A stretch of DNA of 64,000 nt, from NCBI RefSeq assembly GCF_003390325.1, contig NZ_QUOK01000001.1, forward strand, positions 248,001 through 312,000, in the 5' to 3' direction. The position numbers were made by a program, and so were the translations under genes. Each line of letters opens with the position of its first letter. Positions within the stretch are counted from its first letter, which is position 1. Shown in pieces: positions 11,312 to 63,707 of this stretch. This DNA is from Rhodohalobacter sp. SW132. GTDB taxonomy: Bacteria; Bacteroidota; Rhodothermia; Balneolales; Balneolaceae. The notes beneath the pieces are model-generated. The model did no database searches. It was not told where the DNA came from and saw nothing but the letters and a program-made list of their open reading frames with translations.

Positions 11312-11917
11312 TTAGTCACGAAACATCACTTCTTTCTGCAGGGCCTTCTCCAGGCTTTCTTCGTACGCTTTGGAAGAGATCTCAATACATCCGAATTGTG
11401 CCAGGTGCCCTGTGTAGAATTGAGTATCCCACAATGTAAACCCGTTTTTTTCAAGAATACGGTGGCAGTGACAGAGAGCTACTTTGTCCGCTTCTTTTTG
11501 ATGTTTAAACATCGATTCTCCAAAAAATGCACCACCCAGCGAAACGCCGTAAAGTCCGCCTGCGAGGGTGCCTTTTTCATCATACATCTCCACAGAGTGC
11601 GCGTGACCGGCCATATGGAGAACCTCAAACGAACGTATGATGATATCAGAAATCCAGGTTGTATTCCGGCTGGCACACTGCTTCATTACCTCCTTGAAAT
11701 TTGTGTTAATCCGGCAGGTAAATCTGCCCTGACGAATAATTCTCCGAACATTCCCGGATACTCTGAACCGGTCCATCGGGATAATGCCCCGCTGCCGTGC
11801 TGAATACCAGTTGACGGATTTATCATCCCTTGATTCACTCATTGGGAATACCCCTCTGCTATAGGCATCTAAAAGTGCTTCAGGCGGGATAATCTTATTT
11901 TCGGAGTTTTGATGCAT
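11312..11917 (-). CDS. aat: Leucyl/phenylalanyl-tRNA-protein transferase
   Basis: A 201-residue cytosolic enzyme that adds Leu or Phe from tRNA to proteins with N-terminal Lys or Arg, marking them for ClpS/ClpAP. Family hallmarks are present: 'LLDAYSRGVFPM' at the start, 'WYSARQRGIIP', 'TWISDIIIRSFEVLHMAGHAHSVE', 'GGLYGVSLGGAFFGESMF' and 'LWDTQFYTGHLAQFGC'. Length is normal for the short form lacking the N-terminal extension of E. coli Aat. It is monocistronic, divergent from wecB, with no neighbouring clp genes. Confidence 0.95.
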   Translation of the reverse strand: MHQNSENKIIPPEALLDAYSRGVFPMSESRDDKSVNWYSARQRGIIPMDRFRVSGNVRRIIRQGRFTCRINTNFKEVMKQCASRNTTWISDIIIRSFEVLHMAGHAHSVEMYDEKGTLAGGLYGVSLGGAFFGESMFKHQKEADKVALCHCHRILEKNGFTLWDTQFYTGHLAQFGCIEISSKAYEESLEKALQKEVMFRD

Positions 11918-12040
11918 AATTCGCGAAATAATTTATAACTGATGAGGTAACAAAATAAAGATAAGTGTTCTTGAATCGTAGCCGATCCGCAGAATCGTCA
12001 GGCATCAGAACCATTTGGTCCATTCTCGTTTAGAATAAAG

Positions 12041-12057
12041 ATTAGATCAAATCTAAT
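12041..12057. promoter_or_regulatory. Perfect palindrome ATTAGAT-CAA-ATCTAAT upstream of wecB
   Basis: A 7-bp inverted repeat with a 3-base spacer, about 100 bases before the wecB start and in the divergent aat/wecB gap. Position suits an operator, but no cognate regulator is identified. Confidence 0.3.
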
Positions 12058-12159
12058 ATAGTTCTGTATCTCTAAATTATATTTAATTGTCTGTGCCTTT
12101 AACCAGATAAAAACAAATAGTATTTTCAGGCAAAATAAATTGAACAAAAAAAAGAATTT

Positions 12160-13335
12160 ATGCTGATTGACATTATTGCAGGTGCACGCCCGAATTTTAT
12201 GAAAATTGCACCGATCATTCATGAGATTGAGAGAGAGAACAAAGAAGCCGGACTGGATATATCAGATAAGAATTATCTCCAATACCGTCTCATTCATACG
12301 GGCCAGCATTACGACAGGAATATGAGCGGAGCTTTTTTTGAGCAATTAGGTATTCCTGAACCCGATTTGAATCTTGAATCCGGTTCGGGTTCGCAATCTG
12401 AGCAAACCGGGAGAATAATGACCCGGTACGAAAAAGTACTTATTGACAGAAAATCTGATCTGTGTATTGTGGTCGGGGATGTTACATCAACCATGGCGTG
12501 CTCCATCACGGCAAAAAAAATGGGTGTGAAAATCGCGCATGTTGAGGGGGGAATTCGTTCACGTGACTGGACAATGCCCGAGGAGATAAACCGTATTGCA
12601 ACAGACAGCATCACAGATTTTTTCTTTACCACATCTGAAGTAGCGAACAAAAACCTTGCATCAGAAGGTGTAAAAAAAGAGAGGATTTTCTTTGTTGGAA
12701 ATACCATGATTGATACCCTCCTTTCAAATCTCGATAAGTTAAAAAAGCCAGGAGTTTTTGATGAAAAATCATTGAAAAAAGGTGACTTTTTTGTGATGAC
12801 GCTTCACCGGCCTGCGAACGTGGATGAGGAGAAAAAGCTGAAATCACTTATTGATAACATCGCAAAAGGTGTAGAGGGTAAAAAAATAATTTTCCCGGTA
12901 CATCCAAGAACCAAAAAAATATTGGATGATCTGGGCATTTCCCATGAGAACTTAATTTATACCGAACCGCTCGGTTACCTTGAGTTTATCTGGTTAATTA
13001 AACACTCTAAGGCTGTGATTACTGATTCAGGAGGAATTACAGAAGAAACCACAGTACTTGAAATTCCATGCCTCACACTGAGAGACAATACAGAAAGACC
13101 GGAAACCGTAACCCAGGGTACCAACGAACTGATAGGTACAGCTCCTGAAGCTATTGTACCGGCACTGAAAAAATTGATGTCAGGCAACTGGAAAAGCGGA
13201 ACTGTTCCCGAAAAATGGGATGGCAAAGCATCCAAAAGAATTGTTCAGTCTATATATGAGTTGCTTAAAGATGGTCAGTTTAAATTCTACGAACCGTATG
13301 TTGATCATATCCTGATGTTTAAAGCGGAGAACTGA
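12160..13335 (+). CDS. wecB: UDP-N-acetylglucosamine 2-epimerase (non-hydrolysing)
   Basis: A 391-residue cytosolic enzyme interconverting UDP-GlcNAc and UDP-ManNAc, the entry to ManNAc-containing surface glycans. The GT-B fold epimerase motifs are clear: 'GARPNFMKIAPI' near the N-terminus, 'HTGQHYD', 'VVGDVTSTMACSI', 'HVEGGIRSRDWTMPEEINR', 'LHRPANVD' and 'VITDSGGITEETTVL'. Its length fits the bacterial WecB/Cap5P group. No wecC-type dehydrogenase follows; the nearest sugar genes are the polysaccharide locus at 17.2-23.4 kb, which includes a UDP-sugar 4-epimerase. Confidence 0.93.
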   Translation: MLIDIIAGARPNFMKIAPIIHEIERENKEAGLDISDKNYLQYRLIHTGQHYDRNMSGAFFEQLGIPEPDLNLESGSGSQSEQTGRIMTRYEKVLIDRKSDLCIVVGDVTSTMACSITAKKMGVKIAHVEGGIRSRDWTMPEEINRIATDSITDFFFTTSEVANKNLASEGVKKERIFFVGNTMIDTLLSNLDKLKKPGVFDEKSLKKGDFFVMTLHRPANVDEEKKLKSLIDNIAKGVEGKKIIFPVHPRTKKILDDLGISHENLIYTEPLGYLEFIWLIKHSKAVITDSGGITEETTVLEIPCLTLRDNTERPETVTQGTNELIGTAPEAIVPALKKLMSGNWKSGTVPEKWDGKASKRIVQSIYELLKDGQFKFYEPYVDHILMFKAEN

Positions 13336-47402: not shown

Positions 47403-48155
47403 TCAACTTTCTTCTTCAAGCTTCATCACCTTCACTTTCCACTCCTTCGGCATTGTCATCAGGTACTCCCACTTGAAAGGTTCTGAATTTTCCGCTTCCA
47501 TCTGGTAGTAGAGCGGTTTGGGATCGTGATCGTTGATGAAAACAAAGGCTTCTCCCGGCTTCAGGTCATCAAATGCCTCGAAAACCATATCATGACGTTT
47601 GGCCGGAGGATGAGGGCGCACATCAAACTTGTTGACGACCGTAATGTCCGTTGCATCGATATCATTTTCAGCTTTTTTAGTGACGTGAATAATGGTTTCA
47701 TTGTCATCTTGCTTTTTGTACTCCCAGGTGTGATCCCCTTCAAATTTATTTTGAAAGATTTGGTGGATTTCCTCCGGTTTTTCTGAAGCCCTGATCTCCA
47801 TCACATCTCCCGGAAGCATCATCCCGTAGCGATGAAAAAGGGTGTATTTCCAGTCTTTTTTATCGGCTTTTCGCAGATCGATCAGTGTAGAGACATCGTT
47901 GTCTTTGTCAGCTTCTGAATCAGCCGTTCGTGTAACCCGAACTTTCCATTCCTCGGGATCGCGCTGCAGGTATTCCCATCCCACTACATCCCCAAAGATG
48001 GATCGGAATTCGTAATAAAGCGGCTTCGGATCATGATCGTTTATAAAAACAAAACTATCCCCTGCCGGCAGATCTTTAAAAAGCTTCAGCAGTTTCTCGT
48101 GGCGTTTGATCGGGATCAGTATTCGTACATCGAATTCATCGGTTGTTATGTTCAT
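47403..48155 (-). CDS. Protein with three DUF2249 domains
   Basis: 250 residues, no signal, so cytosolic. Three DUF2249-type domains are seen: residues about 1-75 and 175-248 are near copies ('FDVR ... RHEKLLKLFKDLPAGDSFVFINDHDPKPLYYEF' versus 'FDVR ... RHDMVFEAFDDLKPGEAFVFINDHDPKPLYYQ'). A more divergent middle copy (about 90-165) lacks the 'NDHDPKPL' loop. Family members occur near denitrification and NO-detoxification genes and resemble TusA-like folds. The His-rich 'DHDP' loop may bind metal. Domain function is not established. It lies with the RIC-like and regulator genes on the same strand. Confidence 0.85.
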   Translation of the reverse strand: MNITTDEFDVRILIPIKRHEKLLKLFKDLPAGDSFVFINDHDPKPLYYEFRSIFGDVVGWEYLQRDPEEWKVRVTRTADSEADKDNDVSTLIDLRKADKKDWKYTLFHRYGMMLPGDVMEIRASEKPEEIHQIFQNKFEGDHTWEYKKQDDNETIIHVTKKAENDIDATDITVVNKFDVRPHPPAKRHDMVFEAFDDLKPGEAFVFINDHDPKPLYYQMEAENSEPFKWEYLMTMPKEWKVKVMKLEEES

Positions 48156-48213
48156 TGGAGGTGTTATTATATTATATAGTTATAAGAGTATTTTATCTTG
48201 TAAATAATATAAT

Positions 48214-48555
48214 TTATCGATTGTTTTCTGACTGTGAATCACTCCGCCAGTAATTGTTCGCTGCGGCCACCGTTTGAAAATGAACGGCTACTACATGGGA
48301 TGAAGCAATCAGGGCATCCGGATCTTTTGCGTAGACTTCACGCAGCATAAACAGAACCTCCTTATCCGGCTGTGCGGATGTTACTCCTTTACGGGCCAAC
48401 TGAATAGCTACCTGGAAGCCTTCTTCAGGAGTGTCGGTAATCAGGCTGAGTTCGGTATCTTTATTCCGCTCTGAATCCATTTCAGCCTGGGCATAACTGG
48501 CTGATACGGATACCAACAGAAGCATTGCTGCGATTAGTAGTGATTTTGCGTTCAT
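48214..48555 (-). CDS. Small exported protein of unknown function
   Basis: 113 residues with a clear signal peptide (ending 'ASYAQA'). The mature part (about 90 residues) contains 'FQVAIQLARKGVTSAQPDKEVLFMLREVYAKDPDAL' and looks helical. I do not recognise a family. Its position, 30 bases after a DUF488 gene and before DUF2249, places it in the NO-stress gene group on the minus strand. Start chosen at the ATG directly before the signal. Confidence 0.5.
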   Translation of the reverse strand: MNAKSLLIAAMLLLVSVSASYAQAEMDSERNKDTELSLITDTPEEGFQVAIQLARKGVTSAQPDKEVLFMLREVYAKDPDALIASSHVVAVHFQTVAAANNYWRSDSQSENNR

Positions 48556-48584
48556 ATGGATTGTTGCTTTTTTTAGGGTTTGAT

Positions 48585-48953
48585 TTAACTGTTATCGGAA
48601 GCTTTTTCCAGGAACTCTTTTAAAACAATTGCGTGATTGTGTGTCTCGTCCTTTGTGGCATAAAGAAGCGTAACTTTTTGATCCCCGGCTAAATCAAGCA
48701 GTTTTTCAACCGGTTCTTCCTTTGAAGCCAGCTCATGTTCATACCGTTTTTTAAACTCTTGAAACTTGTCCGGATCGTGATCAAACCACTTCCGTAATTC
48801 CGGTGATGGTGTGATCTCTTTCATCCATTTATCCAGTTTAGCGTCCTCTTTTGAGACGCCACGCGGCCAAAGGCGGTCCACCAGCACCCGGCAACCATCC
48901 TCATCCGATTGTTCTTCATAAATTCGTTTGATTTGAAGGTTGAGGGTGCTCAT
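48585..48953 (-). CDS. DUF488 family protein
   Basis: 122 residues from ATG 48951-48953 ('MSTLNLQIKRIYEEQ'); a longer frame adds eight residues. It has the strong family pattern 'RVLVDRLWPRGVSKEDAKLDKWMKEITPSPELRKWFDHDPDKFQEFKKRYEHEL', ending 'VTLLYATKDETHNHAIVLKEFL'. The domain is common in bacteria and has no firm function; some homologues sit near heme or nitrite genes, as here. It lies 24 bases after the Fe-S-type regulator gene, suggesting one transcript. Confidence 0.85.
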   Translation of the reverse strand: MSTLNLQIKRIYEEQSDEDGCRVLVDRLWPRGVSKEDAKLDKWMKEITPSPELRKWFDHDPDKFQEFKKRYEHELASKEEPVEKLLDLAGDQKVTLLYATKDETHNHAIVLKEFLEKASDNS

Positions 48954-48977
48954 TAAGCTAAAGTCACAAAATTTCAC

Positions 48978-49613
48978 TTAACCATTTACAGGAATCTCAT
49001 AGGTACAGGAGAAATCCCCATCAGCGATGTAGCTTGTTCGCTCAACATTTTTATTAAACAGTTTCCGGTAAAACATCGCCTCCAGTTTACAGGGCAGCCG
49101 CGTTTCTTTCACCACTTCTCTGAACGGACAGTTGCACTCTTTGATGGTGATGGTTCCGTCTTCCGAATCCAATTCAGCCTCCGGCATGAAGCCTTCCTCT
49201 TCAAGAAATCCCATCAGCTTGTCGAGTTGTGATTTTAAATCATTTTCAGATGCCTCGTCCATTCTGTTCCGGGCTTTCTTCAGGCGCTCCTCCCAGAAGG
49301 ATTCAAAAAACTGTTCAATCGTCTGCTCATCCCCCTGCTCTTTTAAAAACTTCAGAAGCTCCCGAATGAGATCGGATTCTGAGGAAGGGAAAAGGCGATT
49401 CCCTTTTGGGGTGATTTGGTACTGCAGGCTGGGGCGGCCGGGACCTGACCGAATGTATTCACGGCGGATATATCCATATCTTTCGAGCTGTAGAAAATGC
49501 TCTCTGAGGGTGGTTTTAGCCAGCTCGGTATGAGTGACGGCTTCATCCATCGAAAGCGTGCCTTTTTGTTTAATCAGGTCAAGGAGGTCTTTTTTAGGCC
49601 CGGTATAAATCAT
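48978..49613 (-). CDS. Winged-helix regulator with C-terminal cysteines (SufR/COG2345-like)
   Basis: 211 residues. The N-terminal winged helix reads 'KKDLLDLIKQKGTLSMDEAVTHTELAKTTLREHFLQLERYGYIRRE', with 'GRPSLQYQITPKG' as the wing. The C-terminal half has 'ECNCPFREVVKETRLPCKLEAMFY ... DFSCTYEI', that is C-x12-C-x27-C, close to the cysteine layout of SufR-like iron-sulfur regulators, which lose the cluster on exposure to oxidants or NO. One cysteine of the SufR set appears to be missing. Sensing NO or Fe-S state would suit the adjoining RIC-like repair gene, which precedes it on the minus strand. Confidence 0.78.
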   Translation of the reverse strand: MIYTGPKKDLLDLIKQKGTLSMDEAVTHTELAKTTLREHFLQLERYGYIRREYIRSGPGRPSLQYQITPKGNRLFPSSESDLIRELLKFLKEQGDEQTIEQFFESFWEERLKKARNRMDEASENDLKSQLDKLMGFLEEEGFMPEAELDSEDGTITIKECNCPFREVVKETRLPCKLEAMFYRKLFNKNVERTSYIADGDFSCTYEIPVNG

Positions 49614-49631
49614 AATAAAGTGGGTTACAGA

Positions 49632-50375
49632 CTATGTGGAATACAACTGATTTTTAATCAGGGGGAATAAATGCTCTTGCTCAATGGAGAAATATCTCTC
49701 AAGTTGGGTGGATAAATCTGCCAGGTTTTTGTTCATAATCCTCAATGTTGAACACGCTCCGGCAGGATGTTTAAAGCCATCACTGAACTCCCGGATTTTA
49801 TCCATCTCTTTTTTAATTTTCGGGCGATCCGATTCCAGGATCTCAAGGGCCCGTTTCAGATCTCTTACCTTGCCATACAGAATGGATTCCTTCCGATCAT
49901 TTAGTTCATTTGCCATCGGAAAGAGCGTTTCATTTTCAAGCGACAGGTAGAGCTTAAGCTGATTGTTCAGGGTATTAAAATGCCACTCAATGTTTTTCAG
50001 CCAGGTGTATTGATTTCCGTGAACAAGCTGAACCCTGGGCAGGTCGCGGGAAATTTCGGTGAGCAGCTCCCGGATACAGGGCTGGACAGAATCTGACAGC
50101 CAATTGACCCAGTGTGATAGATCCTCTTTAAAATCCGGATTCTCAGGGGTATTTTTTATACACCCGGGTTCTGCATGATTTTTTTGGATCCAGCTCAAAA
50201 GTTCCTCTTCATTCCACTGGCGCTGCTGACACACTGATCGCAACGTCTGATCCTGATACTGCTCCGGCTTCATGCCTATTGAGTTCAGCAGTTTCGCTGC
50301 GTTTTGATCAGATGAAATAATCTGGTTGATAGTTGCTTCCGGTGTCAGTTTGGGTAGTGTTTTTTCGGTACTCAT
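49632..50375 (-). CDS. RIC-like iron-sulfur repair / hemerythrin-type protein
   Basis: 247 residues. The N-terminal ScdA_N/DUF542 region ('TPEATINQIISSDQNAAKLLNSIGM') is followed by a four-helix hemerythrin-like domain. Possible di-iron ligands are in 'VHGNQYTWLKNIEWHFNTL', 'LENETLFP', 'FKHPAGAC' and 'IEQEHLFPL'. Compared with YtfE/ScdA the N-terminal Cys pair and some His are not evident, so it is a divergent member. RIC proteins rebuild Fe-S clusters damaged by nitrosative or oxidative stress. It is the first gene of the minus-strand group 46.6-50.4 kb and lies next to a ferredoxin remnant. Confidence 0.72.
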   Translation of the reverse strand: MSTEKTLPKLTPEATINQIISSDQNAAKLLNSIGMKPEQYQDQTLRSVCQQRQWNEEELLSWIQKNHAEPGCIKNTPENPDFKEDLSHWVNWLSDSVQPCIRELLTEISRDLPRVQLVHGNQYTWLKNIEWHFNTLNNQLKLYLSLENETLFPMANELNDRKESILYGKVRDLKRALEILESDRPKIKKEMDKIREFSDGFKHPAGACSTLRIMNKNLADLSTQLERYFSIEQEHLFPLIKNQLYST

Positions 50376-50538
50376 GGTAGAGTCGTTTTATTTGTTTCAC
50401 TACACCAAAACTACGGATCTTAAAACATTAAAACAATAAAATAGGAAATAACCGTTTTTATTGTTGTAATTAAATTCCCGGACGGTTACCTTTTGTTAGT
50501 AATGAAAATTTATAAATGAAAGGTGCAGTACGGCGTAG

Positions 50539-50920
50539 GCCGTAAACGAACCCTGTATTAAATGTAAATACACAAACTGTGCGGCCGTTTGCCCGGTGGA
50601 TGCATTTCGTGAAGGGCCGAATGTTTTAACGATCGACCCGCTCGAATGTATCGATTGTGATGCCAGCGTAAGCGAATGCCCCGTAGAGGCGAACTGAATA
50701 TCGAATAATGAACCGCTGAATAAAGAATGTCGAAGGGATTTACAAATGTTCGACATTCAGCCTTTGATATTCAATATTCGATATTTAAAATCTGGATATC
50801 TTTTGCATTGATTGATCTCGTTATGGGGATGAGTCAAAAACAAAAGATCCGCTGCCCGATGCAGATGACTGGGCTGATGTTGAGGATAAACACGAACACC
50901 TTGCAGAAAAATGGGAGTGA
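50539..50920 (+). pseudogene. FdxA-like ferredoxin pseudogene, interrupted by a 132-bp repeat
   Basis: Fragment A (50539-50697) encodes '[27 protein letters not shown]' and 'DPLECIDC', clearly an FdxA-type seven-iron ferredoxin. Its reading frame has an upstream TAG (50536-50538), and one expected cluster Cys is now Ser ('CIDCDAS'). It stops where the first 132-bp repeat begins. Fragment B (50816-50920) is in a different frame and gives the C-terminus, 'KDPLPDADDWADVEDKHEHLAEKWE' and a stop. Roughly 25 middle residues are missing. Near the 5' end a small palindrome (TACGGC-GTAG-GCCGTA, 50529-50544) has probably destroyed the start. Confidence 0.82.
50689..50820 (+). repeat. 132-bp repeat, copy 1 (inside the ferredoxin pseudogene)
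   Basis: Begins GCGAACTGAATATCG and ends GATTGATCTCG. It is about 94 percent identical to copy 2 (8 differences I can count). It contains long inverted segments built of GAATATCGAAT / GAATGTCGAA and TTCGACATTC / ATATTCGA, so it can fold into a hairpin, as palindromic repeats in Bacteroidota do. Confidence 0.92.
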
Positions 50921-50921
50921 A

Positions 50922-51053
50922 GCGAACTGAATATCGAATAATGAACCGCTGAATAAAGAATGTCGAAGGGGTTTACAAATGTTCGACATTCAGCGTTTGA
51001 TATTCAATATTCGACATTTAAAACCTGGATAATTATTGCACTGATTGATCTCG
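50922..51053 (+). repeat. 132-bp repeat, copy 2
   Basis: Same length and ends as copy 1, starting two bases after the ferredoxin fragment's stop. The two direct copies bracket the 101-base ferredoxin C-terminal fragment. From 51054 to 51195 I see only a small GC-rich inverted segment (51141-51175) and no gene. Confidence 0.92.
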
Positions 51054-51195
51054 ATCCAGACATTGATTCAAAAAGATTCCGGGACTGTCATAGCCCTGAT
51101 TACAAAATCAACGGATGCTGGGGGCTGAGTCCGAAACACCGACGCTGACAGGACCTTCGGACGCTGTTAGGTCATGTTAATAAACCAAACAACCA

Positions 51196-51525
51196 ATGAG
51201 CAGAGAATTACACATAAGGCGTGAGGCAGCCCGGAGGTTTTGGGGCGTTATCGATCCCGAGTTGGGCGTAAACATTGTAGATCTGGGATTGATTTACCGG
51301 ATGTTCATGAGGGATGACGATACGTTTGTTGTGGAATATACCACCACAACAGCGGGCTGCCCTATGCGTCGTTATTTGCAGAGAAAAATTGAAGAGGCCC
51401 TGCAATCCATCGAGGAAATTGAGAAGTTCGAAACGAAACTGGTTTTTGAACCGGAATGGTCTGTGGAGATGATCGTGGAAGGGGTAGAGTTTTTCTCCGT
51501 TCCGCCACCTATGATGTCGGGTTAA
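51196..51525 (+). CDS. DUF59/MIP18-type metal-sulfur cluster assembly factor
   Basis: 109 residues, cytosolic. The pattern 'FWGVIDPELGVNIVDLGLIYRMFMRDDDTFVVEYTTTTAGCPMRRYL' is the classic DUF59 fold (VxDPExxxxxVDLGLI ... GCP) with its single conserved Cys. Family members (SufT, PaaD) help mature Fe-S proteins. Its TAA overlaps the ATG of the following NnrS-like gene (TAATG, 51523-51527), so the two are coupled. Placed beside NO-linked genes, it may assist Fe-S repair or assembly under NO. Confidence 0.88.
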   Translation: MSRELHIRREAARRFWGVIDPELGVNIVDLGLIYRMFMRDDDTFVVEYTTTTAGCPMRRYLQRKIEEALQSIEEIEKFETKLVFEPEWSVEMIVEGVEFFSVPPPMMSG

Positions 51526-52628
51526 TGAACATGAATAAAACAAAACTGCTGGATCTGTTTTTTGGCATCCTGCTGGTTACGGCCGGAATGGGTCTTCTGT
51601 TGGGACTCTACACCGGTTTGATCCGTATGGGCCTTTCGATGCCTACGGCATTTGAACTGGACGCGATGGCCCACGGGCCACTGATGATTAATGGGTTCCT
51701 GGCTACACTGATTTCGCTTGAACGCGGCGCTGCGCTTGAAAAATTGTGGAGCTATATCGCCCCATTCTCATTTTTCCTGGCAACTCTTCTGCTGATGACC
51801 GGCTACGTCTATGTGGGTGGATTTTTTCTGCTCCTCGGCTCCCTGTTTTTGGTCATCATTATGGGATATCTCTGCTACTTGCAGTCGGTGGTGCATCACT
51901 ACATTATGGCTGCCGGCGCTGTTACCCTGCTGATCGGAAATGTTCTTTTTATTCTGAATGCACCCGTTTTTGAACTGATCGGCTGGTGGATCGCTTTTCC
52001 GCTGCTCACCATTTTCGGGGAGAGGTTGGAGATGAACCGGATTATGCGTCCGCCCAAAAAAGCGCAGCATCTGTTTGCCGGATTGATTACAGCGTGGATT
52101 ATTTCGCTTGCCATTATCCATTGCCACCGGGATTTCGCCTGGCTGGTCAACTCCCTGTTTTTGATCGGAATTGCCGTCTGGCTAATCCGGTTTGATGTAG
52201 CCCGGCGAACCATAAAATCGCGAGAATGGACCCGCTACAGCGCCTGGTGCCTCCTCACGGGATATGGCTGGCTGATCATTGCCGGAATTCTCGGGATGAT
52301 CTACGGCTTGCCGGCAGCGGGATATATTTATGATGCGCTTCTGCATATCTTTTTTGTGGGATTTGTCTTCAGCATGATCTTTGCCCACGCTTCGATCATT
52401 ATCCCGTCACTAACTGGGGAACTGGTTCCCTGGAGCCGATACTTCTACATGCCGTTTTTTCTTCTCCACGGTTTTCTGCTGATTCGTGTAGTGGGCGATC
52501 TTCTGTATGTAACCGAAATCAGAATCTGGGGAAGTTATGGCAACGTCGCGGCCATTTTGCTCTTTCTTGGCGGAATTCTCTTTCAACTGACCTTTAGACA
52601 ACCGACTCCGGCCTTTTCGCAAACATAG
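51525..52628 (+). CDS. NnrS-like multi-spanning membrane protein
   Basis: 367 residues from ATG 51525 (a second ATG at 51531 is equally possible); a longer open frame to 51456 lies within the preceding gene. Eleven or twelve helices are predicted. 'MAHGPLMINGFLATLISLERGAAL', 'LHIFFVGFVFSMIFAHASIIIPSLTG' and further His in helix ends ('HHYIM', 'HCHRDFAW') match the NnrS family, heme- and copper-containing membrane proteins that protect against nitrosative stress. A role in dealing with NO is expected from family and context; biochemical activity of NnrS remains poorly defined. Confidence 0.8.
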   Translation: MNMNKTKLLDLFFGILLVTAGMGLLLGLYTGLIRMGLSMPTAFELDAMAHGPLMINGFLATLISLERGAALEKLWSYIAPFSFFLATLLLMTGYVYVGGFFLLLGSLFLVIIMGYLCYLQSVVHHYIMAAGAVTLLIGNVLFILNAPVFELIGWWIAFPLLTIFGERLEMNRIMRPPKKAQHLFAGLITAWIISLAIIHCHRDFAWLVNSLFLIGIAVWLIRFDVARRTIKSREWTRYSAWCLLTGYGWLIIAGILGMIYGLPAAGYIYDALLHIFFVGFVFSMIFAHASIIIPSLTGELVPWSRYFYMPFFLLHGFLLIRVVGDLLYVTEIRIWGSYGNVAAILLFLGGILFQLTFRQPTPAFSQT

Positions 52629-52663
52629 TGTTAAACCCAATTTTATGACAAGAGATTATCGGA

Positions 52664-53041
52664 ATGAGTGATATTACAAATGATAGTGACATCAAAACCC
52701 TTGTTTATGAATTTTATGATAAAGTGCAGCAGGATGAACGGCTTGGATTTATTTTCAATGATTATGCCGATGTAAACTGGGACCATCACCTGCCCCGGAT
52801 GGTTGATTTTTGGTCAAATTTACTGTTTCAAACCCGCCGGTACCACGGCCGGCCTTTCCGGCAGCATCTTCCGCTGCCTATACAAAAAGATGACTTTGCC
52901 CGATGGCTATCGTTATTTGAAGAGACCGTGGACGAGCATTTTGAAGGTGAAAAAGCTGATTTTGCCAAAGAAATGGCATCAAAAATAGCATTCTCATTTT
53001 CTATTCGGCTGGAGATGGAAGGGAAATACAAGAATCCATAA
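52664..53041 (+). CDS. Truncated hemoglobin (group III)
   Basis: 125 residues. The start 'SDIKTLVYEFYDKVQQDERLGFIF' and 'DVNWDHHLPRMVDFWSNLLFQTRRYHGRPFRQHLPLPI' follow the group III trHb pattern, with the proximal His in 'FRQHLPLPIQKDDFARWLSLFEETV'. Such globins bind O2 and NO and are often thought to convert NO to nitrate. It lies 35 bases after the NnrS-like gene and 9 bases before a cytochrome c', so all three fit an NO-defence transcript. Confidence 0.85.
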   Translation: MSDITNDSDIKTLVYEFYDKVQQDERLGFIFNDYADVNWDHHLPRMVDFWSNLLFQTRRYHGRPFRQHLPLPIQKDDFARWLSLFEETVDEHFEGEKADFAKEMASKIAFSFSIRLEMEGKYKNP

Positions 53042-53050
53042 TCAATTTCT

Positions 53051-53560
53051 ATGAAATACAATATCAATACAATTCTAACCGGGTCGTTTTTCCTGCTGGT
53101 ATTTATCGGGCTGGCCGTTGCTCATTTTCAGAATAAGGGCCAGGATACCGATACCAAACAGGACGTAGAAACAGAAAGCATCACTCAGCCGCTGGAACTG
53201 TCCACGATCATGCGCATGCTGATGATCGATATGCATACCATAAATGAAGGGATCTATACTAAAAATTTCGATCTGATTGAGCAGGGGGCAGCCAACATAA
53301 ATAATCATCCGCCGCTTTCAACTGAAAGCCGCCAGCTGGTTCAGGGTACTCTGGGCGAGAGGATGGATGTTTTTGGTTCTTTCGATCAAACTGTTCATTC
53401 AAGGGCAGATTCTCTGCGTGAGGCAGCACGGAGCCAGGATATGAACAGGGTGATGGAGCATTACAACGTGATTCAACAGGGATGTGTAAACTGCCATACG
53501 GCATTCCAGGAGGAGATTCGTCGCGAATGTCTCAAACGACAATTACAGAACAGGGAGTAG
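53051..53560 (+). CDS. Membrane-anchored cytochrome c'-like protein
   Basis: 169 residues. One N-terminal helix (about 8-26) serves as signal or anchor. The rest is a helical domain, with the single heme motif 'GCVNCH' near the C-terminus (about residues 148-152), the layout of class II cytochromes c (c'). In these the heme iron is five-coordinate and binds NO. The protein is therefore a candidate periplasmic NO sink. It follows the globin gene by 9 bases and precedes a 66-residue gene by one base. Confidence 0.78.
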   Translation: MKYNINTILTGSFFLLVFIGLAVAHFQNKGQDTDTKQDVETESITQPLELSTIMRMLMIDMHTINEGIYTKNFDLIEQGAANINNHPPLSTESRQLVQGTLGERMDVFGSFDQTVHSRADSLREAARSQDMNRVMEHYNVIQQGCVNCHTAFQEEIRRECLKRQLQNRE

Positions 53561-55862: not shown

Positions 55863-56393
55863 TTATTCTTCATTACCATACCAGCGATAGCCCTGCTGAT
55901 CATTAAATTTGAGTACGATCCTGTCTCCCTTCTCAATCTCTACTTGTCGTTTCTGGCTATGATTCCATTCAACTTCACCATCAATGTGGTTTCCAAATTG
56001 TACTTCAAGTGTATGGCTTCCGGGATCGAGCGGAATGTTGATGATACCGTTGCTGTATCCCCTTCGGAAAATTCCACTGGGACGGTATCGGTCTTCAAAT
56101 AACACAGTTCCGGTATCTGAAACCCGGACAACCACATCGGATCTGCTTTCAACCTGTTGTTCTCCCCTCCGCTGCATATGATCGAGCCGTCCTCCTTCAT
56201 CCTGTTCCTTGGCGTAGATGGGTGCACCTTCCAATTTAAAAGAGATGATCAATTCTGATTCCCGTTCAGGCAGCGGCATATCGGCAGAGCTGAGCAAAAC
56301 CGTGATTCCGGATAGTAAACCCAGGACTAAAAATCCAGCGGCGAGCTGCTTCCAAATCGATTGGGACTGATTGTTAACGGTTCTCTTTTTCAC
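55863..56393 (-). CDS. Membrane-anchored protein of unknown function, NO-reductase operon end
   Basis: 176 residues. One helix at about 15-36 anchors it, and the rest (about 40-170) is predicted beta-rich: 'SELIISFKLEGAPIYA', 'RSDVVVRVSDTGTVLFEDRYRPSGIFRRG' and 'IPLDPGSHTLEVQFGNHIDGE' look like a small beta-sandwich. No recognised family. Its start overlaps the end of the cytochrome b fusion gene by 20 bases, making it the last gene of that minus-strand operon; it may be an accessory subunit. Confidence 0.55.
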   Translation of the reverse strand: MKKRTVNNQSQSIWKQLAAGFLVLGLLSGITVLLSSADMPLPERESELIISFKLEGAPIYAKEQDEGGRLDHMQRRGEQQVESRSDVVVRVSDTGTVLFEDRYRPSGIFRRGYSNGIINIPLDPGSHTLEVQFGNHIDGEVEWNHSQKRQVEIEKGDRIVLKFNDQQGYRWYGNEE

Positions 56394-58008
56394 GGGATCC
56401 CCTGAATTGCTGAGCTTCGGTTAAAAATTTGCTGAAATCGGGTTTATCCAGTTTCAGGTATAGAATTCTGTCCACTTCATACCGGTCTTTGCGAAACTCG
56501 GGATGGCGCTCACCTTCAATGCGGTCGCCGAGCCAATCGGCTCCCAGCCTGAAATCGGGATCCGATTCGCACCCGGAAACGAGTACTCCCTCGGCACCTT
56601 TTTTCAAAGCTCTTTCAATCAGTGTAGGGTGTACCCAACCGGCGCAGGGCAATGTAGCAACCAGGTAGCCGGGCATCTCTTTACACTCACCGGTTTCTGA
56701 GTCGATTGTAAGCAGGCTGCCGGCGCTATTTCCGCAAACAAACGCGATAAACTGGCCTTCCAGAGTGCGATTCTCCTCATCCAGCCACTTATCAATTTTG
56801 CTGCGAATCTCCCACGGTGAAAGGTTCGGATATTCAACCGCAACCGGGTCACAGGACCCTACACAAATTCCGCATGAAACGCAGATCGACGGGTCGATAT
56901 TTGCTACAAACTCGCTCTTTTTGGGATTGCCCTTTTCACGCGGCACCATGCTGATGGCGTTGTAGGGACAGTCGTGGAAGCATTGCGTACAACCGTTGCA
57001 TTTAATTTCATCGATAACCGGCTGGGTGTCTTCTTTCTGCCGCTTCATGATCCATGGGACACTTGATACGGCGATGAAACCTACAAGAAAGATGAGCCAG
57101 AGAGTTCCGCCTTGCAGCCTTTCAGTTAAAATAAGTGGAAGAAGGTAGAAGTAATCAATCGTTACATTTTCCGGAGCAGACATCAAGTCAGCCGGCCCCT
57201 CAACATCGGCAGGGAACAGAAGGGATACGATGACAAGTGAGCCCAGAAGCAGAATGGAGAAGTTTCGGTTTGTAATGAATGCGGGTTTATTTAATCGGGC
57301 TACATGCAGCCAGATCGCTATACCGAACGCAATCGGGATTAGCATATGCATAAAAAAGACGATCAGGAACAGAACAGAGTTGAAGCTGTCATCCGTCAGG
57401 AATGATGCTTTCAGAGGTTCAGCAAAAATGGGGAGCACATCAATCATTTTGGCGGTACCGGTTGCGATCATGGCGGCCCGTTCATCCCAAACCAGCCAGT
57501 AGCCGAGCCAGCCGTCAAACCAGATAAGCAGAACGGCAATAATTCCGGTAATCCAGGCCAGCCAACGCGATCCGCTAAAGCGCCCGGCAAAGAAAACTTT
57601 AAAGGCATGAAACAGCACAAACAACATGAAGGCATCGGAGCTGTATCGGTGCAGGCTGCGTATCAGCTCGGCGGTGTAGGGCTTGTCACTCATTGAAACC
57701 ACAGAATCATAGGCATAGTGAACGCTCGGGCTATACCAGATCAGCAGTGCGAACCCGGTGATAACCGCCACAACAAACATAAAGTTTGCGATCGCACCCG
57801 CCTGGATAAAGGGATGGTAGTTCTCCGGGATATATCGAAGCGTTACACCATCCAGTTTTCGGAACCAGCGATCAACTCTGTCTAAAAACCGGCGCCCGCG
57901 CAGGGAGGAATCAGGCACCGCCTCGGAAGCTTTTACGATATTGGTTTTGAAATCCTGCCACTCGTAAAAGGTGTTGTTGGTTTTTTTGTCGTTGGAGTTG
58001 TTGCTCAT
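56374..58008 (-). CDS. Cytochrome b6-like / 2x[4Fe-4S] ferredoxin / MvhD-type fusion protein
   Basis: 544 residues from ATG 58006-58008. Residues about 60-245 form a cytochrome b with heme ligand pairs H120/H134 and H221/H235. A further helix lies near 300-320. A double ferredoxin domain follows, with C337, C340, C343, C347 and C376, C379, C382, C386. The last 120 residues ('FIAFVCGNSAGSLL', 'ATLPCAGWVHPTLIERALKKGAEGVLVSGCESDPDFRLGADW') are the MvhD/FlpD-type hydrogenase iron-sulfur domain, in which two of the usual cysteines seem replaced (the CxxC and GCxxxxC patterns are incomplete). It likely passes electrons between quinol, Fe-S centres and the downstream heme-copper enzyme; direction and donor are unknown. 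Confidence 0.8.
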   Translation of the reverse strand: MSNNSNDKKTNNTFYEWQDFKTNIVKASEAVPDSSLRGRRFLDRVDRWFRKLDGVTLRYIPENYHPFIQAGAIANFMFVVAVITGFALLIWYSPSVHYAYDSVVSMSDKPYTAELIRSLHRYSSDAFMLFVLFHAFKVFFAGRFSGSRWLAWITGIIAVLLIWFDGWLGYWLVWDERAAMIATGTAKMIDVLPIFAEPLKASFLTDDSFNSVLFLIVFFMHMLIPIAFGIAIWLHVARLNKPAFITNRNFSILLLGSLVIVSLLFPADVEGPADLMSAPENVTIDYFYLLPLILTERLQGGTLWLIFLVGFIAVSSVPWIMKRQKEDTQPVIDEIKCNGCTQCFHDCPYNAISMVPREKGNPKKSEFVANIDPSICVSCGICVGSCDPVAVEYPNLSPWEIRSKIDKWLDEENRTLEGQFIAFVCGNSAGSLLTIDSETGECKEMPGYLVATLPCAGWVHPTLIERALKKGAEGVLVSGCESDPDFRLGADWLGDRIEGERHPEFRKDRYEVDRILYLKLDKPDFSKFLTEAQQFRGSREKENR

Positions 58009-58060: not shown

Positions 58061-58171
58061 AGACCTGCCAGAATACGATAGTACCTGGCAGAGCCTGGAT
58101 TTATGCCCATTATTCGTGGAAAAGACTCTGCCAGGATCCACTGAAATGCGCAGCGGAACTCTGGCAGGTCT
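58061..58171. repeat. Nested inverted repeats of the CCTGCCAG type
   Basis: Outer arms AGACCTGCCAGA (58061-58072) and TCTGGCAGGTCT (58160-58171); inner arms CCTGGCAGAG (58084-58093) and CTCTGCCAGG (58126-58135). The whole 111 bp can fold as a double stem. It lies between the SCO gene and the fusion gene on the minus strand. A direct 14-base repeat (GTGAAAAGGCAAA type, 58031-58058) adjoins it. Confidence 0.85.
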
Positions 58172-58241: not shown

Positions 58242-59180
58242 TCACTCCAAAATTTCAGTTAATTCTTTCGGTTTTTCTTCCTCGATCAACAGCTGGAGAG
58301 CCTGCCCCATCCACTCTTCCTGTATTTCTCCCAGCGTGAACCGAAAGGCAATTTTGCCCTGCCTGTCAATAATGTAAAACAGGTTAACGTGATCCATCAC
58401 GCCGGTTTCAGCATCCCTGTACCTGGAGACGTTCAACTTGTCGAGAACTTTGTCTACAGTAGCGGGATCACCAGTGAGCATGTGTGAATTTGGATTATCG
58501 AGCTGGTAAAACCCTGCCACACGTTTCAGAAGATCGGGCCTGTCTCTTTCCGGCTGCATGGTGATTGCCATCAGCGCTACCTCTTCCTGTTCATCTGGAT
58601 TTAAACGATCCAGCACACGCTTTACCTGGTCCAGAATCATAGGACAGGTGTCGGCGCAGGTTGCGTAAACGGAGGTCAGAATTACCACATCACCCCGATG
58701 GTCATCCAGACTGATTTTTTCTTCATTTTGATTGATCAGTTCAAAGCTCGGTGGAGTTAAAGCAATTCGGAGTGTATTCGGGCGAAATTCAAAATCTTCT
58801 TCTGTTGGAACTTCATACATCAGGAGAAATGAAGCGCCGATTACCATTACCAGTGCAAACGAAGATGCGGCATACCTGGTGATGATCGCAGGTTTGGCAT
58901 AGACCTCTTTGAGCGGTTCAATCCAAACAAAGAGGATCACACCAACAAGCATCAGCGGATTGAATGTGAACATTGCAAAGTAGATCCACTCCATTGAACC
59001 GGTTTCGGGATCGTATCCAAAGCACCAAACTTTGAAGTCTTCGGCAAAGGCACCCCACGTGGAATCGGTGACGGGTACAAATGCCATAACCATAATCATG
59101 ATCCAGGACAGAAACATCGTACTGATCATAAAAGAGGGAAAGCGCCAGGATGTGAAAAAGTTTTCGATTCGTTCGATCAT
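58242..59180 (-). CDS. SCO1/SenC-type copper chaperone with three N-terminal helices
   Basis: 312 residues. Helices at about 16-37, 66-88 and 103-122 precede a thioredoxin-fold SCO domain with C175 and C179 ('YATCADTCPM', the CxxxC copper site) and the conserved His264 ('GVMDHVNLFYIID'). SCO proteins load copper into CuA of subunit II or act as thiol reductases. The extra membrane region is unusual; ordinary SCO has one anchor. It belongs to the NO-reductase-like operon, 56 bases after subunit I, separated by a palindrome. Confidence 0.88.
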   Translation of the reverse strand: MIERIENFFTSWRFPSFMISTMFLSWIMIMVMAFVPVTDSTWGAFAEDFKVWCFGYDPETGSMEWIYFAMFTFNPLMLVGVILFVWIEPLKEVYAKPAIITRYAASSFALVMVIGASFLLMYEVPTEEDFEFRPNTLRIALTPPSFELINQNEEKISLDDHRGDVVILTSVYATCADTCPMILDQVKRVLDRLNPDEQEEVALMAITMQPERDRPDLLKRVAGFYQLDNPNSHMLTGDPATVDKVLDKLNVSRYRDAETGVMDHVNLFYIIDRQGKIAFRFTLGEIQEEWMGQALQLLIEEEKPKELTEILE

Positions 59181-59235: not shown

Positions 59236-60996
59236 TTAACTTATATGCCACAGATCCGTCAGGGCAGCCCAGTTTGCGAAGTAGTAGATCGCAAAACTGA
59301 GAAGGAAAATGAGCACCAGAACAATAGTTCCGGGTGTTTTTACATGCTCGTAATCTTTCCCTTCCTCTTCATAACCCCTGCTGATCAGATCGTCAGTCAT
59401 TTTCTGCTCCCGGTCGTTTTGCCAGGTTGGCATTTTCTTGCCCTTGAGCGACGGGCCGAAGAAAACGGCTGCGACAATCAGTACGATAAATAGCAGCAGG
59501 CCGATGAAGGCGATGACGCCACCAACCCCGAGAACACCCAGGAAGAAATGGGCAATTGGGTCGAAGCCGGTTTCCAGGTTCGCCCCGCTAAAATCACTGT
59601 CATAGGTCCGGCGTGGTACACCGTAAGTGCCTGCAAATGACATGCCCAGGGACATCACCACAATTCCACCGCCGAATAACCAGGGTTGAATGCGTGCCAG
59701 AGTTTTCATGTAGAAATCTTTCTGGAAAATCAGCGGAACCAGGTAGTAACAGAGCCCCATAAAGGCAAGGGTTGTACCTCCCACAACAGTGGCGTGAAAG
59801 TGGCCGGGAATCTTGAGAGTATTGTGAGCCATGATGTTGATCTGCTCTGTTCCCAGTGTCACACCGGTGATTCCGCCGATAAACCCGAAAATAATCACGG
59901 ACAACGCAACTGCTGAGAAACCGGGGTCTTTCCAGGGAAGTTTGGCGAACCAGCCAAAAATCCCTTTGGTGTAGCCTTTCCGGCGCATTGCTACCTCCAT
60001 CGATGCCGGTACGGTGTAGCCGTGAATCATGGATGCAAGTACGGCAAGATACATCGCGTAGGAGGTGTTCCAGATCTTCCATTCGGCGCTGAAACCAGGA
60101 TCAACCAGGAGATGGTGGGCTGCAGCAAGATTGATAAACAGGATATAAAGAATGAATGCCCCGCGACACACCGTTTCGTTAAGAGGTTTGGCCCCCGTAC
60201 TCATCGTGGCAACAAAGTACCATACGGCAACCATTGCGGCCACATTGATCTGCTGGGAGTGATGGCCCAGCCCCCACCAGAAAAGCCGGTAGACACCGGG
60301 ATCCATCATCTCCATCCAGCCCATAGACCAGAAAAAGGTTGGGACCAGCGCAATGGCTCCGTGAACCAGGGCTACCACCGCGATGATGGCAGCCGTTGCA
60401 GCCCCGAAAGTGACCAGCGGCATGGAGCCTTCGTAGGTTTTATTTTTTTTGGCGATGTAGAGCGTGGCAAAGAAATTAAAACAGACGACCAGAGCTCCTA
60501 CTGCAAATAGGATGATTCCGAGATAGAATATCGGATGGGCTTCGAGTGGCGGATAGGAGGTCAGCATCACATCGGCGCGGCCATCCAGGATGATGTAGTT
60601 GGTAAGGATAGCGCCCGCCGCCATAAGGGCAAGTGATACATGGGCCAGCTTTTTGGAAAACATTTTGGTGTTAAGCAGCGTGGTGCTGGCAAAATAGAGA
60701 ATGGCCATCTCGAAAAAGATAATCCAGAATACCAGCATGTTTACCCCGTGAAGGGTCAGCATCCGGTAATACCAGATATCATTCAGAAGCATGATGTTGG
60801 ACCATCGCGTAAGCGCTAAGGAAATTGCCGCCACAGCACCTATAAGCAGAAATATAACCGCCAATACAGCATTAACCTTTACAAAAAATTCAGCTTTTGT
60901 GAAGATGGATAAGCCGGTTGTGTCACATATTCTATGCGCTGCGGATTTAACCAGGCTGCTATCAGTTTCAGATATAGTAGTAGATTCAGTACTCAT
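59236..60996 (-). CDS. Heme-copper oxidase-family subunit I with Tyr to Gln change: probable NO reductase
   Basis: 586 residues from ATG 60994-60996 ('MSTESTTISE'). It has at least twelve helices. Low-spin heme ligand His83 is in 'LTLHGVNM'. CuB ligands are His245 and the pair His294-His295; the high-spin heme ligand region is 'GHFHATV' (H399, H401). The residue four after His245, where A- and B-type oxidases carry the cross-linked Tyr, is Gln249 ('GHHSQQIN'). Without that Tyr, oxygen reduction is unlikely; NO reductases of the heme-copper superfamily often lack it. The spacing of 49 residues between CuB histidines fits the B-type line. Partners here are a CuA subunit II and SCO. Confidence 0.83.
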   Translation of the reverse strand: MSTESTTISETDSSLVKSAAHRICDTTGLSIFTKAEFFVKVNAVLAVIFLLIGAVAAISLALTRWSNIMLLNDIWYYRMLTLHGVNMLVFWIIFFEMAILYFASTTLLNTKMFSKKLAHVSLALMAAGAILTNYIILDGRADVMLTSYPPLEAHPIFYLGIILFAVGALVVCFNFFATLYIAKKNKTYEGSMPLVTFGAATAAIIAVVALVHGAIALVPTFFWSMGWMEMMDPGVYRLFWWGLGHHSQQINVAAMVAVWYFVATMSTGAKPLNETVCRGAFILYILFINLAAAHHLLVDPGFSAEWKIWNTSYAMYLAVLASMIHGYTVPASMEVAMRRKGYTKGIFGWFAKLPWKDPGFSAVALSVIIFGFIGGITGVTLGTEQINIMAHNTLKIPGHFHATVVGGTTLAFMGLCYYLVPLIFQKDFYMKTLARIQPWLFGGGIVVMSLGMSFAGTYGVPRRTYDSDFSGANLETGFDPIAHFFLGVLGVGGVIAFIGLLLFIVLIVAAVFFGPSLKGKKMPTWQNDREQKMTDDLISRGYEEEGKDYEHVKTPGTIVLVLIFLLSFAIYYFANWAALTDLWHIS

Positions 60997-61013: not shown

Positions 61014-61538
61014 TTATTCTACGATTATTTTTCCGGTCATCCGGTGATGCCCGATTCCGCAAAATTCATTGCAGATAATGCTGAACTCCCCGGCGGTGGT
61101 GGGCGTAATCGTCATCACATAGTCGTAACCCGGTAATACATGGAGATTCATATTTAGTGGAATCAGTGAGAAGCCGTGCTGCAGGTCTGCCGAAGAGATG
61201 TGAATCCGGTAGGTTTGATCCTTCTTTAGTTTTAAGACCGGGTACCACTCCCACATCTGCCCGAGCAGATAAGCGTCGCCGCCGGGTGCGGGCTCAACGA
61301 TCGGTATGTTGTTCATTTCACCAACTTGATTGGTTTCAATGAACTGATTTACACGCTGAATGAAATCGGCCGGTTCAACTTGGTAGGTTTCACTTGGGGC
61401 GTTCTGCTTCCCCTGGAAGTGCCACCAGGGCATTGTTACCGACATCACCAGGCACCAGGCCAGTGCCAGGCCTACCCACAGGCGTTCAGCTCCCGTAGGT
61501 GTTCGATACCAGTTTCCTTTTGGATGGAATATGCTCAT
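61014..61538 (-). CDS. CuA-type subunit II of the heme-copper NO-reductase-like complex
   Basis: 174 residues. One N-terminal helix (about 20-38) anchors a cupredoxin domain in the periplasm. The CuA ligands are complete: His121, C156-x-E158-x-C160, His164 and Met167 ('IICNEFCGIGHHRM'). It has one transmembrane helix, as in B-type oxidases. It would take electrons from a periplasmic donor and pass them to subunit I, whose start lies 17 bases downstream. It is followed on the minus strand by SCO and the cytochrome b fusion. Confidence 0.92.
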   Translation of the reverse strand: MSIFHPKGNWYRTPTGAERLWVGLALAWCLVMSVTMPWWHFQGKQNAPSETYQVEPADFIQRVNQFIETNQVGEMNNIPIVEPAPGGDAYLLGQMWEWYPVLKLKKDQTYRIHISSADLQHGFSLIPLNMNLHVLPGYDYVMTITPTTAGEFSIICNEFCGIGHHRMTGKIIVE

Positions 61539-61708: not shown

Positions 61709-63127
61709 TTATCTGTTTTGACTGTTGGTATAGGATTTCACAACGATATAGATAAAAAGTATCCCGCCGGCCATAGCAAGCAGGCCACCCAGACTCATCA
61801 AGCCAAGTCCCGTTAGAGCTTCGACGGAGTATATATTTTGATCCTGTCCAAAAAGTTTGCGGCCCATTCCCATCATGCCGGCGATTGCAAAACCGATCAC
61901 AAACATCGTTTGGCCAAAACCAAACAGCAGGGGCTGGAGCTTCATAAGCCGTATCGATTTGCGGGTTGTTAACTGATAACCATACTCCTTCAACAGTATG
62001 AATACCATCACCATATAGGCTACCGTAACCCCACCGAGGGATGCGTGATAGTGTGCAGGGATAAGTGTGCTGGAACCGCGTATCATCGCGCCGAGTACAA
62101 AGCCGGTGACGGTAAGAAGTGCGCTTACCAAAAATCCATTGAAATAGAGGCTGCGGAACGGATTTTTCTGCTTGTTTAATCTGCTGTAGTGTAGCCAGAT
62201 AGCCCTGGAGCCCAGGATGAGATAGATTGTTACGACAGGAAATATGAACCATCTCATCAACTGGGTGTAGCCGCTGTAGTAGAGTTGGTCACCGGTGCCA
62301 TTCAATAATAAAATAGGTGACAGCACAGCCGGTACCGCTAAAACGGATAGCAGAATAAAATTCACACGCTTTCCGACGGGTATCTTGCCGGTGATTTTGT
62401 AGATCAGAATCAACCACACAGTGAGCATCCCAAGGACATTGGCAAATTGCAGAATGTGACCACCACCCCACATGATCAACTCATAATAGAGCGTTCGATC
62501 AATTGTGTTGGATGTCAACATCCAGGAGATCATAAAGGTAAAGATTGCAGCCATAACCACGATGCCGGCGTAACGAATTGCAAGCTGGGCAGCAGGGTTA
62601 AAAAATGAGGGCGGCGATTCCGGTTTGGGAATTGAGAAAACAGAAAGATTCCCGGGAAATGTGATAAGGATACCTGCGCTAAATACTAAAAGGCCGCCAA
62701 TGAAGACGGGATGGTCAAGTACCGGAATGTAGTTGGCCAGAATGGGTTCGGCTCCCTTGAAAAAGATGGAAGCGATCATAAGAAGTAATCCACACAGGGC
62801 AAGCTTTGTACCAGCAGCCATCTGAAGGAAACTTACAGAGCGGTTTAACGAAACATGGAGAACTGAGAGAAACGCATAAAACCACACAACAAGGGCAAAA
62901 TCAACATGTAATACCAGAGATTTCCTTGCAAATAGAGGATCTCCAATAAACTCAGCGGTTCCCGGAGTTCGGGCAATAACAATAACAGCTGAAAACAGAC
63001 CGGATAGCAGAAGACTGAATAATCCAATCTTCAGCCAGCTGCGGGAATAGTCCTTTTCTGAAGCCAGAGCGGATGCCTGCCAGATTTCAATCGGTAAGGA
63101 GATCGCTTTTTTTACAATGGGCAGCAT
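61709..63127 (-). CDS. Heme-copper-oxidase-like membrane protein lacking the CuB His pair
   Basis: 472 residues, about twelve helices. It aligns with the oxidase subunit I pattern at His74 ('LHVDFALVVWFYAFLSVLH'), His224 ('MWGGGHILQFANVLGML') and 'PAHYHASLGG' (H359, H361). At the expected place for the CuB His pair (about residues 272-275) it has 'LLLN', and four after His224 it has Phe228. Heme binding could thus be kept while copper is not. I take it as a paralogue with changed function, such as a NO-binding or assembly subunit, or one of the unusual NO-reductase types. It is the first gene of the operon, divergent from the Rrf2 gene. Confidence 0.75.
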   Translation of the reverse strand: MLPIVKKAISLPIEIWQASALASEKDYSRSWLKIGLFSLLLSGLFSAVIVIARTPGTAEFIGDPLFARKSLVLHVDFALVVWFYAFLSVLHVSLNRSVSFLQMAAGTKLALCGLLLMIASIFFKGAEPILANYIPVLDHPVFIGGLLVFSAGILITFPGNLSVFSIPKPESPPSFFNPAAQLAIRYAGIVVMAAIFTFMISWMLTSNTIDRTLYYELIMWGGGHILQFANVLGMLTVWLILIYKITGKIPVGKRVNFILLSVLAVPAVLSPILLLNGTGDQLYYSGYTQLMRWFIFPVVTIYLILGSRAIWLHYSRLNKQKNPFRSLYFNGFLVSALLTVTGFVLGAMIRGSSTLIPAHYHASLGGVTVAYMVMVFILLKEYGYQLTTRKSIRLMKLQPLLFGFGQTMFVIGFAIAGMMGMGRKLFGQDQNIYSVEALTGLGLMSLGGLLAMAGGILFIYIVVKSYTNSQNR

Positions 63128-63266: not shown

Positions 63267-63707
63267 ATGTTTTTAAACCAGACCTCCCACTATGCGCTTC
63301 GTGCTATGACCGGGCTTGTGATATCAGAAACAGATGAACCGGTGGGTTCAAAAAGGCTGGCTGAAGTGACAAGTGTCCCCTCTCACTATTTGTCAAAGAT
63401 TATGCGTAAAATGGTTAAGGCGGGATATGTTGAATCCAGAAAAGGGCACGGCGGCGGATTTACTTTGAAAGTAGCTCCTGACAAAATTCGAATCATTGAT
63501 GTGTTGAATGCATCCGGATTCGATCTGGAGGATCAGCCTTGTGTATTTGGTTTTGACAGTTGCGGAGATGATAATCCTTGTGCCCTCCATCCCGTATGGA
63601 AGCAATTGAAAACCTGTTTTACTGACTGGTCACATAATACCACCTTAGAGGATATTCGAAGAGAAAGCAGTAAACTGGAGGATGTAAAAAGGTGGGTAAA
63701 AGAGTGA
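63267..63707 (+). CDS. Rrf2-family regulator, NsrR-like
   Basis: 146 residues. A winged-helix N-terminus 'MFLNQTSHYALRAMTGLVI' and 'VPSHYLSKIMRKMVKAGYVESRKGHGGGFTLKVAPDKI' are typical of Rrf2. Three cysteines at 92, 99 and 105 ('PCVFGFDSCGDDNPCALH', C-x6-C-x5-C) closely match the Fe-S ligand positions of NsrR and IscR. NsrR loses repression when its cluster reacts with NO. Placed head to head with the NO-reductase-like operon and flanked by palindromes, it is the likely local NO sensor. IscR-type sensing of Fe-S status cannot be excluded. Confidence 0.88.
   Translation: MFLNQTSHYALRAMTGLVISETDEPVGSKRLAEVTSVPSHYLSKIMRKMVKAGYVESRKGHGGGFTLKVAPDKIRIIDVLNASGFDLEDQPCVFGFDSCGDDNPCALHPVWKQLKTCFTDWSHNTTLEDIRRESSKLEDVKRWVKE

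Follow-up and report, generated by a model that had tools for sequence, protein, structure and literature searches.

The eNOR-type NO reductases are widespread and poorly characterised, and the supply of electrons to their CuA site is the question on which the protein described here bears. In the descriptions that we located, an eNOR has two subunits; the active-site residue of subunit I is Gln instead of the cross-linked Tyr, and a CuA-type subunit II adjoins it (Hemp and Gennis; PMC8756737, residue in its Table A4). Ferredoxin and MvhD are a known electron-transfer pair in HdrA (PMC9012536; PMC12054007). MvhD docks on flavoproteins (PMC9012536), and in Sporomusa ovata, MvhD was detected chiefly in the membranes (PMC9430772). 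In the cupric reductase CcoG/FixG, two [4Fe-4S] clusters are combined with an Ig-like domain in the periplasm (PMC7558416).

Our analysis points to an eNOR branch with a predicted membrane redox module added, which is new here as far as our incomplete coverage of the literature goes. In the window (the whole stretch of 64,000 nucleotides that was analysed), the ORF for a cytochrome b–ferredoxin–FlpD fusion of 544 aa lies on the minus strand at 58008..56374; no long ORF was found on the plus strand across 56374-58008. A 578-aa version with an alternative start at 58110 was rejected because the N-termini of relatives align with the 58008 start. The fusion and the genes around it are as follows.

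55863..56393, minus strand: ORF of 176 aa with a GTG start and a 20-nt overlap with the fusion gene; TM helix and extracytoplasmic beta-sandwich
56374..58008, minus strand: fusion protein of 544 aa; cytochrome b (helices A-F), then 2x[4Fe-4S] ferredoxin, then FlpD/MvhD domain
58242..59180, minus strand: membrane-anchored copper chaperone of the SCO1/SenC family (PF02630)
59236..60996, minus strand: heme-copper subunit I (COX1) of the eNOR type, with Gln (GHHSQQ) replacing the cross-linked Tyr; start inferred from relatives
61014..61538, minus strand: CuA subunit II of the COX2 family, motif CNEFCGIGHHRM (CxxxCxxxH)
61709..63127, minus strand: degenerate COX1-like protein of 472 aa, conserved upstream in Balneolaceae
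63267..63707, plus strand: divergent regulator of the Rrf2 family (PF02082), conserved in Balneolaceae loci

Like the described eNORs, subunit I carries Gln where oxidases have the cross-linked Tyr, and a gene for a CuA-type subunit II adjoins its own. In the active-site alignment, Gln was present in all subunit I rows of the fusion clade and of the sister eNOR branch, and Tyr in ordinary oxidases. NO is the presumed substrate of this branch of subunit I. In contrast to the two-subunit enzymes, the branch adds SCO, the cytochrome b–ferredoxin–FlpD protein and a TM beta-sandwich part. The 472-aa COX1-like protein keeps heme-copper-type His residues 74, 224, 359 and 361, and its CuB His pair is gone; it may bind two hemes without copper. 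In L038, subunit I (11458-13137) is the most divergent Bacteroidota eNOR in the fusion branch and reads GHFK, not GHFH, at the heme-ligand motif, which would reflect either a sequencing error or an altered heme site.

The co-occurrence of this domain order with a CuA-type subunit I lacking Tyr, raised in a preliminary description of this DNA, was borne out in other genomes. The gene order CuA subunit II, subunit I, (cyoE), SCO and fusion was found in 14/14 informative non-redundant loci, the window included, and so the fusion does not sit mostly beside unrelated operons; in the genomes searched, none was found apart from an eNOR operon. These loci span Balneolaceae, other Bacteroidota, a KSB1-group genome and an alphaproteobacterial plasmid, with L009 excluded as it begins inside the fusion gene. 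The fusion was present in 8 of 394 Bacteroidota genomes, exactly those with a subunit I at at least 50% identity, and in 2 of 82 KSB1-phylum genomes. Seven further Bacteroidota genomes have a subunit I at 42-45% identity. In the sister eNOR branch, neither fusion nor SCO adjoined subunit I in the five neighbourhoods read among these seven (L066 and L068-L071; the poorly parsed L067 is left out of this count). In the sister operons L066 and L069-L071, subunit I is followed by a third gene, for a protein of about 260 aa without a Pfam match. The subunit I tree is compatible with a single gain of the fusion and also with its loss in the sister branch. On the plasmid (L077; NZ_CP156080.1, 10963-17502), which belongs to Defluviimonas, the same operon has genes for heme o synthase and a hemerythrin-family protein added, and this copy suggests that the operon spread horizontally.

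The domain matches of the fusion are far above chance. Pfam placed Cytochrome_B at residues 59-240 (1e-21), Fer4_7 at residues 336-386 (2e-8) and FlpD (PF02662) at residues 421-535 (34 bits against a cut-off of 22.3), the last in agreement with the C-terminal hydrogenase-delta/MvhD-like domain of the preliminary description. The parts of the chain are laid out as follows.

57289..57834, minus strand: cytochrome b helices A-D (PF00033), residues 59-240, with the invariant His120, His134, His221 and His235 as heme b ligands
57043..57282, minus strand: residues 243-322, covering the ef loop and helices E-F; Asp285 stands where PEWY has Glu (profile against b6f subunit IV)
56836..57021, minus strand: 8Fe ferredoxin domain, residues 330-391, with eight invariant Cys
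56404..56748, minus strand: FlpD/MvhD domain (PF02662), residues 421-535, with Cys425, Cys442, Cys455 and Cys480 as candidate cluster ligands

Four heme-b histidines and eight ferredoxin cysteines had been read in this single chain from the start, and comparison with relatives confirms both sets. The histidines (120, 134, 221 and 235, in helices B and D) and the cysteines (337, 340, 343, 347, 376, 379, 382 and 386) were invariant in a 13-row alignment and also in the Defluviimonas protein. A PDB sequence search returned cytochromes b6 as the solved structures closest to the first part of the fusion. The structure model of the 544-aa chain was modest (whole-model pLDDT 67), with firm matches for the cytochrome b part alone, where residues 65-322 could be superposed on bc1 cytochrome b across its helices A-F (Z 19.8; 251 aligned at an rmsd of 3.1 A). 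Beyond the four-helix heme bundle, the fusion has the ef loop of cytochrome b, absent from the earlier account. A profile of residues 196-322 found b6f subunit IV (E 8e-4) and aligned Asp285, which is invariant in 14 sequences, to the Glu of PEWY; the Pro of this motif is not retained. The fold match to helices A-F and Asp285 make a Qo-like site for quinol likely, on the outer face of the membrane. With six helices, the chain would return to the cytosol for its ferredoxin and FlpD parts, and the final TM helix would then carry the beta-sandwich to the outside.

Similar to cytochrome b6 with subunit IV and to bc1 cytochrome b, the fusion has two predicted b hemes, a cd region reading GYxLxWD and an acidic ef-loop residue at the PEWY place. 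Unlike them, it lacks helices G-H and has ferredoxin and FlpD domains attached. A further difference is that no Rieske gene was found in any fusion operon, and that the operon has no gene for cytochrome c1/f. Three fusion genomes (G208, G004 and G176) gave no Rieske domain match at all, which indicates that the cytochrome b of the fusion does not need a Rieske protein.

The ferredoxin and FlpD parts follow each other as in HdrA2, the type Ia HdrA with a fused MvhD, and segment 568-711 of the HdrA2 profile matched residues 326-482 of the fusion (65 bits). In contrast to HdrA2 and MvhD, the fusion has no flavin domain, its canonical MvhD cysteines are partly replaced, and a membrane cytochrome b is joined to it. 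A profile of the FlpD part built from seven relatives gave significant PDB matches to MvhD/VhuD-type chains only. Two MvhD cysteines had been thought lost, and at the canonical positions of the window protein this is correct: the first pair (CxxC) has Ser428 in place of its second Cys, and GCxxxxC lacks its second Cys. A fourth conserved Cys is nevertheless always present at a shifted place. While Cys425, Cys455 and Cys480 are invariant, Cys442 occurs in the 12 sequences without the canonical GCxxxxC/GCxxC cysteine, and the two that have this cysteine (L038 and P0002) lack Cys442. Only two proteins retain the second Cys of GCxxxxC: that of Defluviimonas and, at a closer spacing (CxxC), that of L038. 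His460, which is invariant in the Bacteroidota/KSB1 sequences, was rejected as a simple replacement ligand since it also stands beside the second Cys in L038; Cys442 fits better. The finding of four candidate Cys ligands in every sequence argues for a metal cluster retained in the FlpD domain. It is decidedly unlikely that this domain is a cofactor-free remnant for docking alone, a reading compatible with any other given here. Although two canonical cysteines are gone from the window protein, and, across distant relatives, the 544 aa vary most in the FlpD and ef-loop segments, three cysteines are invariant and the fourth is always at one of two places, swapped between branches.

The fusion gene was initially taken as the end of its operon. 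This must be revised, as the 176-aa ORF that overlaps it (56393..55863) is its missing C-terminal part. In full-length relatives, the protein extends about 175 residues beyond the window version; the ORF has about 705-725 codons in every relative with a complete frame (Balneolaceae and same-class genomes), and the KSB1 copy is extended likewise. This added C-terminal stretch starts with a TM helix, and AlphaFold2 modelled the roughly 130 residues after it as a beta-sandwich (pLDDT 85). At the junction, the two frames would become one if a GAAAAAG run were a single A shorter, and the split in the window comes either from a genuine mutation or from a single-base error of assembly. Two distant relatives, Defluviimonas (L077) and L038, also carry this domain as a separate overlapping gene, so a natural gene split in the window is possible. 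The beta-sandwich matched no Pfam family, FixG_C included, and a fold search gave no firm relative (best Z about 9) and no FixG-type chains among the matches listed. This TM and beta-sandwich part would probably anchor or dock the module on the outer side.

Taken together, the wire-like anatomy, from an outer quinol site to inner Fe-S centres, and the fixed CuA-eNOR operon lead us to propose, with a probability of roughly 0.4, that the fusion is a dedicated electron-input subunit of an eNOR-type NO reductase complex. The outer-side Qo-like site and two b hemes, joined to the two inner-side [4Fe-4S] clusters and an MvhD-like centre, would act as a trans-membrane wire. Its electrons would come from menaquinol or from a cytosolic donor docking on the MvhD domain, and would pass to the CuA of subunit II and from there, through the Gln-type heme-copper site, to NO. 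The physical complex, the direction of flow, the use of quinone and the cofactors bound are all parts of this model that we infer. In its favour are the constant operon order, the match of the eight Bacteroidota genomes with the subunit I branch, the shared active-site Gln, the invariant heme His, ferredoxin Cys and Asp285, and the bc1-type fold with its ef loop. The pairing of ferredoxin with MvhD and the membrane location of the Sporomusa ovata MvhD also fit, and conservation is higher in the cytochrome b and ferredoxin parts than in SCO. Further, NosZ was present in 10/10 fusion genomes tested (with no control set of non-fusion relatives), and NirK is encoded less than 1 kb from subunit II in G275 and less than 3 kb from the upstream end of the operon in G306. 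The unusual electron input to a denitrification enzyme hinted at in the preliminary description is thus the best, though tentative, reading on grounds of operon linkage, conserved ligands and NosZ.

Several observations weigh against an input subunit. The operon encodes no cytosolic partner and no Rieske protein or cytochrome c to accept the high-potential electron, and a related eNOR branch manages without the fusion. In addition, NrfD-type proteins were found in 10/10 fusion genomes, and from these a route to CuA through Alternative Complex III and cytochrome c probably exists. The idea that the fusion is explained by the absence of any other quinol-to-cytochrome c route was rejected on the same finding. 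Elsewhere in the window, positions 47403-53560 encode a triple DUF2249 protein, a hemerythrin-domain (RIC-like) protein, a DUF59-like protein, a weak NnrS-like membrane protein, a truncated globin and a cytochrome c'-like protein; this cluster looks like one for NO/nitrosative stress handling.

The tight coupling to SCO fits an assembly role as well. The fusion always directly follows SCO, and their frames overlap or abut in five loci (L008, L036, L037, L038 and L077), with overlap in L008, L036, L037 and L077. By analogy with the [4Fe-4S] protein CcoG, which serves cbb3 oxidase, the fusion would then be an assembly or maintenance factor, moving electrons across the membrane to keep the SCO cysteines and copper reduced, or to reduce Cu(II) for insertion at CuA/CuB. 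We consider this somewhat unlikely. It is consistent with the joint absence of SCO and fusion from non-fusion eNOR operons, with heme o synthase in the same gene block in Defluviimonas, and with several likenesses to CcoG/FixG: a membrane protein with a gene after the oxidase structural genes, and a layout of TM helices, two [4Fe-4S] (predicted in the fusion), a further TM helix and a C-terminal extracytoplasmic beta-sandwich. However, CcoG is not known to contain b hemes, a bc-type quinol site or an MvhD domain. The beta-sandwich of the fusion has no sequence match to FixG_C, FixG_C proteins already exist elsewhere in some fusion genomes, and the greater conservation of the cytochrome b and ferredoxin parts relative to SCO does not favour a SCO helper.

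The module could also be an oxidoreductase in its own right that links menaquinone with a cytosolic flavoprotein or ferredoxin, comparable to a Qmo- or NarHI-like redox loop, and merely co-expressed with the NO reductase. Quinone-linked enzymes in general combine cytochrome b with Fe-S centres on the inner side, and the ferredoxin–MvhD pair matches the HdrA2 tail, with MvhD able to dock on flavoproteins. Nevertheless, this is unlikely, as the fusion was never found apart from the eNOR operon in the genomes searched and no catalytic subunit adjoins it. HdrA gave no match over cut-off in ten fusion genomes, a result that also counts against the HdrA-like flavin subunits QmoA/QmoB, and none of these is encoded in the operon. 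The absence of HdrA also bears on classical MvhD–HdrA flavin-based bifurcation feeding denitrification, at which the preliminary description had hinted. The FlpD domain of the fusion is over the Pfam cut-off, but the genome of the window has no second FlpD domain and two canonical MvhD cysteines are gone; classical bifurcation is thus not supported and seems barely credible. Another version, also very unlikely, is a quinol-based bifurcating NO reductase, in which menaquinol at the Qo-like site would give one electron to CuA and the strongly oxidising reaction of NO and the other, via the b hemes, to the [4Fe-4S] clusters and MvhD on the inner side, making low-potential reductant (NADH or reduced ferredoxin) in the cytosol. 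If true, the low-potential branch of a Q-cycle would here exit via iron-sulfur centres and not return to quinone.

No paper found in our literature search places the domain trio in an eNOR operon; since coverage was incomplete, an earlier description is possible. The trio appeared in a single incidental table, Table A3 of PMC8756737, where RME88945.1 combines PRK03735 (cytochrome b6), DMSOR_beta-like and FlpD with a C1 cytochrome c. This entry, compared by its listing alone, has the same three domain types in one ORF and differs from the fusion in the extra cytochrome c domain; it is given there without operon or function.

In conclusion, an MvhD domain occurs here in organisms in which HdrA was not found, and a cultured carrier, Fodinibius halophilus, exists. 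If the fusion is an assembly factor, it would be a heme-containing helper for copper-site assembly. If it is an electron-input subunit, it would show that a CuA NO reductase can be supplied directly from quinol or from the cytosol. As NO reductase makes N2O, its electron supply bears on greenhouse gas production.
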